From positions 1 to 64,000 of the forward strand of contig NZ_JASHHX010000011.1 of the NCBI RefSeq assembly GCF_030056575.1: a stretch of DNA of 64,000 bases. The letters run 5' to 3'. The DNA is from Rhodoblastus sp. 17X3 (GTDB taxonomy: Bacteria; Pseudomonadota; Alphaproteobacteria; Rhizobiales; Beijerinckiaceae). The notes under the pieces are model-generated. The model did no database searches. It saw only the letters and a program-made list of their open reading frames with translations, and was not told the origin of the DNA. The first letter of the stretch is position 1; each line of letters begins with the position of its first letter. The position numbers and the translations under genes were made by a program. Of the stretch, positions 18,004 to 52,220 are shown piece by piece.

Positions 18004-18099
18004 CCGCCGCCCCTCCTCCAGCGCTTCGCGCCACCTTTTCCCGCCAGGGGAGAAGGATTTCCGCCAAGCTTTCCAATTCGCCAGTATAGAGAGACGCCG

Positions 18100-47974: not shown

Positions 47975-48613
47975 CTACCAGCGCAGCAGACGTCCGCCCG
48001 CGAACCAGCCGAGGGCGACGACGACCGATGTCGCGATCATATACCAGACAGCGACGAAGAAGGGCGAGTCGTCCGGGCAGTTCATGGCGTAAAGCGTCGC
48101 TGCGAGCCCCGAGGCCGCGAAGGCCGCCGCCGCCCCGGCGCGCTGCGGATCGCTCGGGGCGCCATGCTTGAGCGCCAGGAACAGGCCGGCCAGCGGCGCC
48201 AGCGCCATCAGGGGAATGAGCGTCACGCAATGGACGGCGTTATGGCCGATCAGGCGCGCGCCCCATTGGTCCGCCGGGACGCTGGCCATCTCGGCCAGGC
48301 AAGCAGCCAGGACCAGAGCAGGCGCAAGCAGGACCGCGCGCCGCGCCAACCCGGATGCGACGCCCGGACGCGACAGCCGCCAGGTCAGGACCAGCCCCGT
48401 GAAGGCCATGGTCAGGGTGAAAACGAATTTGAACAGGAAACGCGGCTGGTCGAGCGAGGCGAAGAAGGTGTCGCGCAGGCCGAGAAAGAGAAAAAAGCCT
48501 ATCGCGGAGACGAGAAAGCCCAAAGCGAGGTCGAGCGCGAAGGCGCGCGACATCGGCGCGGCTTTCGTGTCGTTGTCCGCCGCCAGCGCGGCGATGAGGT
48601 CCTCGGTCTTCAT
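47975..48613 (-). CDS. nrsF: NrsF-type (DUF1109) membrane anti-sigma factor
   Basis: This 212-residue protein has six membrane helices after a short cytoplasmic N-terminus ([13 protein letters not shown]), the DUF1109/NrsF layout. In Caulobacter, NrsF holds the ECF factor SigF and releases it in response to heavy metals, depending on two periplasmic cysteines about 50 residues apart. Here C129 and C179 are present at the same spacing, supporting the same sensing role. It starts 6 bases after the sigF stop on the minus strand. The gene pair is divergent from the bufferin operon. Confidence 0.88.
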
Positions 48614-48618
48614 CTTCG

Positions 48619-49191
48619 TCAATCACTCAGCTTTTGATAGAGCTCCGCCAGCGCCTTGAGCCCGCGATGAACGGACACGCGCAGGGCCCCTTCGGTGACC
48701 CCCAGATTTTTCGCCGCGTCGCGCAGGCTTTCGCCGCGGATCGACACGGCTTGAATCGCCTCGCGTTGCTTCCCACTCAATTGATCGAGCAGTCGCAGGG
48801 CGTCCTGCCGCTCCAGTTCTCGCTCGACATGTTCCGCCTCCGGCGGCGCGGCGAGGACATTCTCGAAATCGGCAATATCCGTCTCGGCGCGGCGGCCGCG
48901 GCGGCGCATCATGTCGATGACCTTGTTGCGCGCGATGGCCGAAAGCCAGGGCGTCAGCGGCTGGCTGGAATCCCAGGTGTGGCGCTTGAGATGAATGGCC
49001 AGAAGGGTTTCCTGCACCGCGTCCTCCGCCTCGCTCGCCGAAAGTCCGGCGCGCGCGCAGGCCTTTCGGCACAGATTGCGCAGATAAGGCGCGAGGGCGG
49101 CGAGCAGGCGCTGGTAAGCGGCGCCGTCGCCCGCCAAGGCGGCGCGCATGGCGGCGCTCCATTCCTGATCCTGCGCCAGCAAATCCGGCAT
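48619..49191 (-). CDS. sigF: ECF sigma factor, SigF type
   Basis: This 190-residue ECF sigma factor has region 2 ([18 protein letters not shown], about 53-70, with [18 protein letters not shown]) and region 4 ([19 protein letters not shown], then [17 protein letters not shown]). It is the partner of the NrsF gene that follows. By homology to Caulobacter SigF it should direct transcription of bufferin (DUF2282/DUF692) genes under copper or heavy-metal stress. The ATG at 49191 gives a good N-terminus but is only about 6 bases from the predicted transcription start, so the message may be nearly leaderless, or Met15 (49149) may be used. Confidence 0.9.
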
Positions 49192-49203
49192 CCAATACTC
49201 ATC

Positions 49204-49229
49204 TTCGCGCGAGGGCGGCGGATTGTTAC
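49204..49229 (-). promoter_or_regulatory. Putative SigF-type promoter for sigF-nrsF
   Basis: On the minus strand a -35-like GTAACA (49224-49229 on the plus strand as TGTTAC) and a -10-like CGAA (TTCG at 49204-49207) are separated by 16 bases. This agrees with the GTAACC-N16-CGAA consensus known for Caulobacter SigF, so the pair is probably autoregulated. Confidence 0.65.
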
Positions 49230-49297: not shown

Positions 49298-49324
49298 GTA
49301 ACGGCATGGCGCGGCCCGCGTATG
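49298..49324 (+). promoter_or_regulatory. Putative SigF-type promoter for the bufferin operon
   Basis: GTAACG at 49298-49303, a 15-base spacer, then CGTATG at 49319-49324, facing the DUF2282 gene 45 bases on. The -35 element matches the one in front of sigF exactly in five of six positions; the -10 starts with the CG typical of this sigma class but differs after that. Confidence 0.6.
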
Positions 49325-49368: not shown

Positions 49369-49674
49369 ATGAGCAAATCCAGCATGACCCGCGATCTCGT
49401 CGTTTCGGCATCGCTCGCCGCCTCGCTGATGACGGCCCTCGCCGCCGTTCCGGCCAAGGCCGAAAGCAAGCAGGAAAAATGTTTCGGCGTGGCCCTCAAG
49501 GGCGCCAATGATTGCGCGGCGGGCGCCGGCACGACCTGCGCCGGAACCTCCGCGATCGATTATCAGGGCAATAGCTGGAAATTCGTGCCCAAGGGAACCT
49601 GCGAAGCCATGAAGCTTCCGGGCGGCCGCACCGGCTCGCTGACCGCGCTCGACCGTGATCGTTCGAAGTCGTGA
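49369..49674 (+). CDS. bufA1: Bufferin-type metallophore precursor, BufA1 (DUF2282) family
   Basis: This 101-residue protein has a Sec signal peptide (about residues 1-31, ending near PAKA) and a mature part with four cysteines: C38 (EKCFGVA), C49 (NDCAAG), C57 (TTCAGT) and C78 (KGTCEA), plus [16 protein letters not shown], the family's signature end. In bufferins, an MNIO enzyme oxidises cysteines into copper-binding heterocycles before export, which protects against copper. AAAGGAG is an ideal ribosome binding site. A serine/asparagine-free Gly/Thr linker separates the Cys pairs. It is the first gene of the operon with the fused bufB-bufC and a DoxX gene. Confidence 0.92.
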
Positions 49675-49708
49675 TTTTCGAAGTTGTGATTTGAGGAGGC
49701 GCGTCGCC

Positions 49709-51376
49709 ATGAATGCTTTCGCCGAAATTCGCCGGTCAAAGCCTGCTCTCGCGGAAAACTGCGTGGGCGCGGGGCTGAAGCCGGCGCATTATGCGGAGAT
49801 TCTGGCGGCGCGGCCCGATATCGGCTTCTTCGAGATCCACGCCGAGAATTACGTGAACGCGGGCGGGCCGAATCATCGCTGGCTTGCCGCGATCCGAGAA
49901 CGTCACGAGATTTCAGTCCATGGCGTCGGCCTATCGCTCGGCTCCACGGAAAAGCTCGACCGCGACCATCTGGCGCGGCTGAAAAAGGTCGTGGCGCGCA
50001 CCGAGCCCGCGCTTGTTTCCGAACATCTCGCCTGGTGCGACTTTTCCGGCCGCGCCTTTCCCGACCTGCTGCCCCTGCCCTATGACGAAGCCGCGCTGCG
50101 CCGCGTCGCGGGCAAGATCGACTCCGTGCAGCAGGCGCTGGGTCGCGAAATCCTGATCGAAAATCCCGCGACCTATCTACGCTTCCGGGGCGACGCCCTG
50201 TCCGAGCCGCAATTTCTCCGCGAACTCTGCGAGATCGCCGGCTGCGGCCTGCTGCTCGACGTCAATAATGTCCATGTCAGCGCGATCAACCACGGCTTCG
50301 ACGCCGAAGACTATCTCGACGCATTTCCGCTGGAGCGGGTCGGAGAAATCCATCTCGCCGGCCATGCCGAGTCCCGCGACGCCCACGGCGCCTTCCTGAT
50401 CGACGATCACGGCGGCCCGGTCGCCGACGAGGTCTGGGCGCTCTATCGCCATGTGATCGCGCGCGCCGGCCCACGCCCCACCCTGATCGAATGGGACAAT
50501 AATATTCCGGACTGGCCTGTCCTGCTCGGCGAGACATTGAAAGCGCGCAGGACGCTTGACGCCCGCAGCCCGCTCCCCCGTCACGAGGGGCGGATCGAGC
50601 CGAAAAGCGAGGCCGCGCCGGCCAGCGATGTTTGGCAAGCCGCTTTCGCGACGGCCCTGCGGGACCCCGAGGCGCCCGTCCCGGCGCTGTTCGCGCCCTG
50701 CGACGCGGAGGCGCGTTTCGCGGTCTATCGCAATAATTCCGCCGTGGCGGAGATCGGCGCGCTCAAGGAGCAATTTCCGACCGTGCTGCAACTGGTGGGC
50801 GAAGACGCCTTTTCCGGGCTCGCCCGCGCCTTCGCTCGCAAAAATCCGCCACACTCGCCCATTCTGGGTGATTACGGCGAGGATTTTCCCGATTTCGTCG
50901 CGGATTTCCTGTCGGAACACGGCGCCAAGGAAACGCCTTACCTGCCGGATGTCGCGCGCCTCGATTGGGCCTGCCTGCGCGCGCTGCGCGCGGAAGACGC
51001 CGAGCCTTGCGATGTGGCGCGGCTCGCGACGCTCGATCCGGCGCGGATCGGCGCGACTCGCGCCAGAATGCATCCCGCCGTGGCGGTGGTGGCGTCGAAC
51101 TGGCCGCTGCTGGTCCTGCGCGACCCGGAGGCGCGGGCAATCGACGACTGGCGCGCCGAAACGATTCTCGTCCTACGGCCTCAGGCCGAAGCCCGGCTGA
51201 TCGCGATTTCGCCCGGCGCCGCCGCCTTCCTCGACGCCTGCGCCAAAGGCGCGACGCTGGCCAAGGCCTCGGAGGCTGGCGCGCGAGTGGAAGTCCATTT
51301 CGATTTCGGCGCGACCCTCGTCGCTTTGACCCAGGCCGGCGCCTTCGTCGATTTCATCTCTGACACTCAAATCTAA
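49709..51376 (+). CDS. bufB: Fused MNIO enzyme (DUF692, BufB) and DUF2063 partner (BufC)
   Basis: This 555-residue protein joins two normally separate genes. Residues about 12-285 form the MNIO TIM barrel: GVGLKPAHY-like [69 protein letters not shown] and [11 protein letters not shown], with all iron-binding His/Asp/Glu motifs. Residues about 310-555 are a DUF2063-type partner ([54 protein letters not shown]), which normally recruits the precursor peptide. There is no stop between them. ATG 49709 follows GAGGAGG. By homology it converts BufA1 cysteines to thiooxazole-type ligands using iron and O2. Confidence 0.9.
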
Positions 51377-51388
51377 GGGGAGATCTCC

Positions 51389-51886
51389 ATGAGCGCGCTG
51401 ACCGCAAATTATCCGCTTGAACTGCCCTATTGGCGGGCTGTGAAGCCCACTTTCGTCAATTTCGCGCAACTTGCGCTGCGCGTGGCGCTGGCCGTGCCGT
51501 TCTATCGTTCGGGCCTGACCAAATGGGACGGCTTCCTGAACCTGAGCGACAGCGCCGACGCGCTGTTTTCAGACGAATTCAAGCTGCACCTGTTCGGCGG
51601 CGAATATGCCTTCCCTGCCCCACATGCGATGGCTTTCGCCTCGGGCTGCATGGAAATTCTGTTGCCGATCCTGCTGGTTCTCGGGTTTGGAACGCGTCTG
51701 GCCGCGCTGGGCCTGCTGGGCATGACCGCGATCATCCAGCTTACCGCGCCCGAGGGCTGGGCCAATTTCCATCTGATCTGGGCCGCGACCGCCCTCGCCA
51801 TCCTTGTCCACGGGCCGGGCGCGTTCTCGCTCGACGCGCTGATCGGACGGGCCTTTGGAAGCTCCTTGGCCAAACGGGGAAGCTGA
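51389..51886 (+). CDS. DoxX family membrane protein (BufD-like)
   Basis: This 165-residue protein has four membrane helices of the DoxX type (LALRVALAVPFYRSGLTKWD near the N-terminus, EILLPILLVLGFGTRLAALG, then a short C-terminal helix). In bufferin and other MNIO operons a DoxX protein is a frequent last gene, of unknown but probably redox or export-related function. It begins 12 bases after the fused enzyme gene behind GGGGAGA, so it belongs to the operon. Confidence 0.88.
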   Translation: MSALTANYPLELPYWRAVKPTFVNFAQLALRVALAVPFYRSGLTKWDGFLNLSDSADALFSDEFKLHLFGGEYAFPAPHAMAFASGCMEILLPILLVLGFGTRLAALGLLGMTAIIQLTAPEGWANFHLIWAATALAILVHGPGAFSLDALIGRAFGSSLAKRGS

Positions 51887-51977: not shown

Positions 51978-52220
51978 ATGTCGGACCACGCCATTCCGCA
52001 TTTCCACAACCAGCCCGGACTTTCGAAAATTCGCGTCGGCGCCAGGGAATTCATGTGCATCGGCGCACTGCCGCCCTTCGACCATCCCCATGTCTATATC
52101 GACATCGGCTCGGATTCCGAGGCGATCTGCCCCTATTGCTCGACGCTTTACGTCTATGACGCCTCCCTGCACGGCCATGCCGATCCTGCGGAATGCGAAG
52201 CCCCGGCCCAAGCGGCCTGA
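51978..52220 (+). CDS. zf-CHCC zinc finger protein
   Basis: This 80-residue protein matches the zf-CHCC family, related to the complex I accessory subunit NDUFS6. The ligand pattern is Cys in EFMCIGA, His in FDHPHVYID, and the pair CPYCSTLYVYD. It probably binds one zinc ion. In alphaproteobacteria the gene commonly precedes a FAD-dependent monooxygenase, as here, 63 bases upstream. Confidence 0.9.
   Translation: MSDHAIPHFHNQPGLSKIRVGAREFMCIGALPPFDHPHVYIDIGSDSEAICPYCSTLYVYDASLHGHADPAECEAPAQAA

Follow-up and report, generated by a model that had tools for sequence, protein, structure and literature searches.

The bufBC gene of Rhodoblastus sp. 17X3 encodes, in one chain of 555 residues, an MNIO maturase (DUF692) joined to its DUF2063 partner protein, and the locus around it is very probably a bufferin-1 operon in which this single polypeptide acts on the precursor BufA1. 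The gene lies in a stretch of 64,000 nucleotides, called the window here, that covers positions 1 to 64,000 of contig NZ_JASHHX010000011.1 (assembly GCF_030056575.1; genome of 4.18 Mb in 68 contigs). An earlier note on this DNA had read in it a BufA1-type precursor with four cysteines and a DUF2282 domain, a 555-residue DUF692–DUF2063 fusion and a DoxX gene, and Pfam models confirm all three, each in its place. The join is real and useful, though it does not make a new kind of system.

The fused protein and its precursor

The bufBC gene occupies 49709..51376 of the plus strand, from the ATG at 49709 to a TAA that ends at 51376, with a GGAGG nine bases ahead of the ATG, and its frame is open throughout, with no internal stop. 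Both Pfam domains fall in this one chain. The MNIO (BufB) domain takes up residues 19–282 (49763..50554, plus strand; PF05114 351.5 bits, cut-off 25) and is recognised as BufB by NCBIfam NF050167 MNIO_BufB, which gives the first half 378.6 bits against a cut-off of 310. After an interdomain linker of residues about 283–308 (50555..50632, plus strand), variable in sequence and length, comes a partner part of the PME1 type (50633..51373, plus strand), made up of DUF2063 (residues 309–397; PF09836 85.1 bits, cut-off 27.2) and an RRE-like C-terminal domain that extends to residue 555. The PME1 arrangement, DUF2063 followed by an RRE-type domain within 250–260 residues, is seen both in the PF09836 match and in the structural matches of the 250-residue model. 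The nine iron ligands, mapped through alignments from the TglH list of the TglHI paper (PMC10880893), correspond to H71, H106, E151, D184, N187, H215, D232, H234 and E261, and the full set of nine letters is kept in each of the first 13 fused proteins, those fetched before the other 23.

AlphaFold2, supplied with the window sequence and sequences from related loci, gives for the fused protein a mean predicted local distance difference test (pLDDT) score of 93.5 and a predicted template modelling (pTM) score of 0.91, a high value by which the model places the two halves together confidently. Low pLDDT marks the N-terminus, the linker (65 for residues 291–300, 73 for residues 301–310) and, mildly, the last residues. 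The VIA-align list of the whole model, which covers the MNIO part only, contains TglH (8hi7_B; Z 28.2, root-mean-square deviation 2.8 over 273 residues) and 3bww (Z 26.9). Modelled alone, the partner part (residues 306–555; pLDDT 93.8, pTM 0.89) finds just three matches at E ≤0.001, namely 8hci_A and 8hi7_A, which are the non-MNIO chains of TglHI, and 3dee, the structure of NGO1945.

Directly upstream, bufA1 (49369..49674, plus strand) encodes a precursor of 101 aa with a DUF2282 domain (PF10048 83.8 bits, cut-off 22.4) and the four cysteines C38, C49, C57 and C78. Its N-terminus, read by eye, resembles a signal peptide, with a basic start, a hydrophobic stretch and an AKA end. The BufA2 model NF050166 gives it 23.5 bits, under the cut-off of 60, which places it outside BufA2. 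BufA1 is the only DUF2282 match in its genome, which contains two DUF2063 matches, one in bufBC and the other in a split bufA2 locus. This second, split bufferin-2 locus (L001; contig 14, 49339-53121) has a precursor to which the BufA2 model gives 96.7 bits (cut-off 60), and its bufC2 start overlaps the bufB2 end in the motif ATGA. Because the only other DUF2063 of the genome belongs to that locus, BufA1 has no closer stand-alone partner. In Buf1, the modification sits on the two central cysteines and the outer two are joined in a disulphide (PMC12452194), and for that reason modification of BufA1 is expected on C49 and C57. The earlier note had expected changes on all four cysteines; this holds as an expectation for C49 and C57, but for the outer two it runs against the disulphide of Buf1 (PMC12452194).

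The operon and its conservation in Rhodoblastus

The layout of the locus is divergent. On the minus strand lie a sigF-like gene for an extracytoplasmic function (ECF) sigma factor (48619..49191; 190 aa by its listed start; PF04542 and PF08281 over cut-off) and nrsF, a gene for an NrsF-type anti-sigma protein (47975..48622; 215 aa from a listed TTG start; PF06532 175 bits, cut-off 26.8), which overlap by 4 bases; on the plus strand bufA1 and bufBC are followed by doxX (51389..51886; 165 aa; PF07681 60.9 bits, cut-off 23.6). The sigF–nrsF pair is absent from the earlier note. An adjoining sigma factor and NrsF are a feature of Buf1 clusters and not of Buf2 clusters, and both are present here by Pfam models over cut-off. 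Between sigF and bufA1, a pattern scan places two sigma-F-type promoter-like sites back to back, GTAAC-N17-CGAA for sigF–nrsF (49204..49229, minus strand) and GTAAC-N16-CGTA for bufA1 (49298..49322, plus strand). By the same scan, the former recurs at a like place in 6 of 7 fused Rhodoblastus loci and the latter, with N16 or N17, in 7 of 7. The RpoE7 promoters of the same gene set in S. meliloti look alike (PMC6180224), and in Caulobacter sigma-F controls CC3254–CC3257 under chromium and cadmium stress (PMC3511200). Just downstream of doxX, at 51978-52220 of the window, there is also a gene for a small PF10276 zf-CHCC zinc-finger protein.

Several observations count against the assignment to a bufferin-1 operon with a one-polypeptide maturase. 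Three narrower models score below their cut-offs: the NCBIfam NrsF equivalog (88.5 bits, cut-off 300), the HvfX model on DoxX (52.2 bits, cut-off 80) and the HvfC equivalog NF050145 on the partner part (48.8 bits, cut-off 142). All three parts are thus divergent, and the partner part is a relative of HvfC without being an equivalog of it. The sequence profile of the partner part matched no PDB chain up to E 1. In the control region, the bufA1 site ends in CGTA where the sigF site has CGAA, and in one of the seven loci the pattern scan found no sigF site. The usual bufferin-1 layout has separate bufB and bufC genes, and here there is one open frame; this marks the locus as a variant, and the passages available of the MNIO landscape paper (PMC12452194) do not define the operon by the separateness of these genes.

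The fused frame is open in 7 of the 11 Rhodoblastus genomes, and every one of the seven that has an MNIO has it in the fused form. PF05114 and PF09836 find no match in the other four (G001, G002, G003 and G010), and the system seems to be accessory in the genus. Two of the genomes with the fusion, G005 and G009, hold in addition a split bufferin-1 operon (L014 and L011, respectively). At all seven fused loci sigF, nrsF and bufA are present, and the N-terminal part of nrsF adjoins the fused operon (the fetched loci end inside this gene). The sigF protein is 81–95% identical to that of the window in the six other loci, and the fused protein 61–85%. Across four gene pairs, the ratio of nonsynonymous to synonymous substitution rates (dN/dS) is 0.16–0.29 for the MNIO part, 0.21–0.25 for the DUF2063 part and 0.24–0.47 for the RRE part, and both halves of the fused protein are under purifying selection; for the linker, it is 0.47–3.3 on only 16–34 codons.

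These data bear on three other accounts of the locus. The fused protein might have lost its maturase function or have another substrate, with BufA1 left unmodified or served by bufB2–bufC2 of contig 14, and the genome does hold that second, split bufferin-2 locus; but the nine ligands are kept, both halves are under purifying selection, and bufA1 and the fusion are neighbours in all seven congeneric loci, which makes this account very improbable. It could also be argued that the locus still yields two proteins, with translation that begins inside the gene, near the linker, and gives a free partner beside the fusion. In most classed loci (171 of 210) bufC is a gene of its own and is read in a different frame from bufB, so that separate initiation is probably ancestral, and three relatives (L010, L013 and L015) have an in-frame ATG near the end of the MNIO domain or in the linker, with GTG or TTG in other members. 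In the window, however, the linker contains no in-frame ATG, GTG or TTG. From the EWD motif (residue 261) up to residue 336, the frame offers only one of these codons, a TTG at 277 that lacks a clear ribosome site; none is common to all seven Rhodoblastus loci, and the linker codons drift. A second product of this kind is very improbable. The faintest of the three is an error of sequencing or assembly, for which the loss of one stop, or one frameshift, would suffice in any one genome, the named genus genomes examined being metagenome-assembled genomes (MAGs; five records); the earlier note had singled out residues of about 285–310 as the place for such a defect, but the frame is open there in 7 of the 11 genus genomes, that of the window included, the six other proteins differing from the window's at 15–39% of residues, and the recurrence of the fused gene, its kept ligands and the purifying selection together dismiss the idea almost entirely.

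Known systems and the proposed maturation pathway

Among the closest described counterparts is the bufferin-1 locus of Caulobacter vibrioides (CC3254–CC3257, with sigF–nrsF at CC3253–CC3252), which has the same genes under the same sigma-F/NrsF control (PMC3511200); there, enzyme and partner are made separately, as CC3255 (280 aa) and CC3256 (254 aa), whereas the window has one chain of 555 aa. The same order of parts, with the C-terminus of the MNIO joined to the N-terminus of the partner in one active chain, has been engineered as HvfBC, from the oxazolin maturase of H. influenzae (July 2026 preprint, PMC13419390). That protein is man-made, has no linker and acts with an EGKCG-type precursor, while the protein of the window is natural, has a linker of about 26 residues and goes with a DUF2282 precursor. 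MovX and ChrH (PMC13419390; MovX also in PMC12452194) are single-chain MNIOs as well, in which an added domain may do the work of the partner; the added part is an RRE or winged helix in MovX and a domain of unknown function in ChrH, and neither is a full DUF2063–RRE partner.

A natural DUF692–DUF2063 protein of the same domain order had been mentioned in 2009, in the paper on the NGO1945 structure (PMC2954202), as one of the 216 DUF2063 proteins then in Pfam; the passage names no species, operon or function for it. The MNIO landscape paper (PMC12452194) names precursor fusions and an MNIO–nitroreductase fusion, and its main-text passages on fusions name no MNIO–DUF2063 fusion. Apart from the 2009 mention, the literature searched, as far as its text was available, contained no natural MNIO–partner fusion of this kind. 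The architecture is thus already on record, and its spread and repeated origin were not found in the parts of the literature searched.

Most MNIO enzymes need a partner, and HvfB and HvfC form a complex only in part, a weak binding that has hampered work on them (PMC13419390). Natural fusions are ready-made 1:1 maturases for studies of structure and mechanism, and they show which linker lengths occur. They also mean that surveys which expect two genes may miscount partner proteins.

The proposed pathway combines the gene content of the window with what is described for relatives. By analogy with Caulobacter, and given the conserved promoter-like sites, metal stress would release the sigma factor from NrsF, so that bufA1, bufBC and doxX are transcribed. 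The RRE-like C-terminal part of the fusion, as in its family, would hold the signal peptide of newly made BufA1; in a related system, HvfA is hardly modified when its signal sequence is missing (PMC13419390). The MNIO tethered to this part, which has a centre of two or three irons, would then oxidise C49 and C57 to 5-thiooxazoles, with a loss of about 4 Da each; a peptide with two repeats loses 8 Da on formation of 5-thiooxazole, that is, 4 Da for each one (PMC12668002). After modification, the product would be exported by Sec, and in the periplasm the exported BufA1 may close a C38–C78 disulphide and hold copper. Both the chemistry on the cysteines and the copper binding are inferred for this system from its family, and the cluster as a whole probably protects against copper. 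The fusion itself would set enzyme and partner at 1:1 and raise the local concentration of the partner. A gain from fusing has been shown only for engineered HvfBC, which gives markedly more product than the co-expressed pair (PMC13419390).

Distribution and probable repeated origin of the fusion

A survey of DUF692–DUF2063 proteins across genomes, of the kind that the earlier note had suggested, finds fusions in several bacterial groups. A profile of the fused protein was searched in overlapping draws of 248 genomes at family, 397 at order, 385 at class and 398 at phylum level, with matches in 99, 215, 146 and 145 of them, respectively. Fusions were called with the two domain models on stop-free frames, among the matches listed and with candidates only fetched, so that divergent fusions may be missed. 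Among these matches, fusions occur in seven Rhodoblastus genomes, in G1238 and in four Alphaproteobacteria with small genomes that belong to four families (G929, G723, G634 and G982); in the order of G634, four genomes were searched and only G634 itself matched. In a collection of named genomes, the best 80 of 108 loci include six fused ones, five from the genus and one (L133) from a MAG labelled Asaia bogorensis. The six fusions first found outside Rhodoblastus all pass Pfam for both domains, and a fusion unique to the locus of the window is rejected by these proteins in other groups.

The fusion is most widespread in the family of G1238, which also holds Undibacterium and in which 86 of 145 genomes have a profile match. 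Here, 41 stop-free matches run across both domains, 39 of them reaching profile position 533 or beyond and two reaching 440 and 445; two more rows, for which the listing shows a stop, turned out to be fused when read, which brings the count by listing to 43 of the 145 genomes. These fusions span 13 genus codes. Undibacterium griseum and an Oxalobacteraceae MAG belong to the family, as their contigs have sequence in common with those of G1353 and G1439. From the 24 loci of this family that were fetched, 23 are fused and one is split, and with L208, the locus of G1238, the confirmed fused loci number 24 (L225, L226, L228–L234, L236–L247, L254, L255 and L208). The fetched loci include three full-span rows in which a stop had been counted; of these, L246 and L247 are fused and L227 is split. 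The precursor gene of L208 ends right before the start of the fusion, its product resembles BufA1 of the window (54.5% over 44 residues), and a relative of it lies upstream in 24 of the 24 confirmed loci (tblastn).

The four fused proteins from small genomes may, from their upstream genes, belong to a bufferin-2 lineage. In L110 and L111, the cysteine-rich gene directly upstream is BufA2-like, with 41.3 and 23.3 bits, below the cut-off of 60; in L108, the directly upstream cysteine-rich gene has no match to the BufA2 model, and in L109 no upstream cysteine-rich gene is seen among open reading frames of at least 70 codons. Separate BufA1-like genes occur near L108, L110 and L111 (tblastn).

Separate genes are nevertheless the common state. 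The 210 loci classed, which are best matches and picked candidates and not a random sample, comprise 192 split, 13 fused and 5 without bufC within 700 bases; the split loci have bufC in a frame other than that of bufB in 171 cases and in the frame of bufB, after an intervening stop, in 21. The statement of the earlier note that bufB and bufC are separate in known operons therefore stands for 192 of the 210 classed loci, but not for the Undibacterium family, where the fusion is common, nor for the protein mentioned in 2009. A long frame or a full-length match had led to the choice of 36 loci, of which 5 are fused and 31 are not. Among full-length matches with an internal stop, L023–L032 (two stops in L026) are split pairs on reading, and L046–L052 were classed as split pairs by the domain models. 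On plasmids, two genes are annotated in 16 of 16 annotated records among the 30 listed of 355, and in 40 of 40 annotated rows listed from a second set of 353 records. The order is MNIO followed by DUF2063 in all 36 fused rows read, and the linkers between the domain matches measure 19 to 89 residues.

The tree of the MNIO domain and that of the partner domain (52 rows each) both require four state changes between split and fused, with 4 changes at both ends of the 5–95% range over 200 bootstrap trees, and the well-supported branches force at least 3. A quick tree, enlarged by 30 rows of the G1238 family, requires five. Such counts do not tell gain from loss; since most loci are split, the changes are taken to be fusions, and the trees are best read as several separate fusions. 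A single clade of the 13 fused rows is rejected by the approximately unbiased (AU) test (p 2.6e-9). For four group pairs out of six possible, the groups being named after the tree was seen, a joint clade is rejected as well, with p from 0.016 to 8.6e-6; the separations of Rhodoblastus from L208 (p 0.016) and from L133 (p 0.0036) are the less firm ones. In the quick tree, L237 falls outside the clade that unites the 23 remaining fused rows of its family, at an unresolved fork with the split L210, so that the fusion may have arisen there once or twice. Most likely, neighbouring bufB and bufC genes in their usual order became one when the stop that separated them was lost, a route that we infer and that would have been taken several times. 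In a same-frame pair, the loss of one stop is enough to give a fusion; L133 adjoins in the tree the same-frame split pairs L048 and L051.

It is conceivable, though rather doubtful, that the joining of MNIO and partner is a recurrent solution which selection has favoured on four or more occasions, in bufferin-1 and probably in bufferin-2 lineages, always with the MNIO first and, in two loci or more, with a dispersed palindromic repeat as most of the linker. What is selected for may be speed in a race with Sec, in which the tethered partner catches the signal peptide and feeds the central cysteines to the enzyme before export.

The repeats concerned lie in frame. In L133 (1859-2000), a dispersed palindrome with 40-base arms that are 98% complementary makes up most of the linker, and 86 alignments of this repeat are found over the genome of L133; in L015 (1354-1504) most of the linker is a dispersed repeat with 47-base arms (83%), with 53 alignments in G009; both counts include the two strands and the repeat's own place. 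Because the sister loci lack it, the repeat of L015 may have come into a linker that was already there. Palindromic elements sit in frame inside genes elsewhere too. No inverted repeat was found in the linker of the window's own protein. Away from the operon, at 18010-18057, the window carries a partial copy of the L015 linker repeat of its sister genome, 85% identical over 48 bases.

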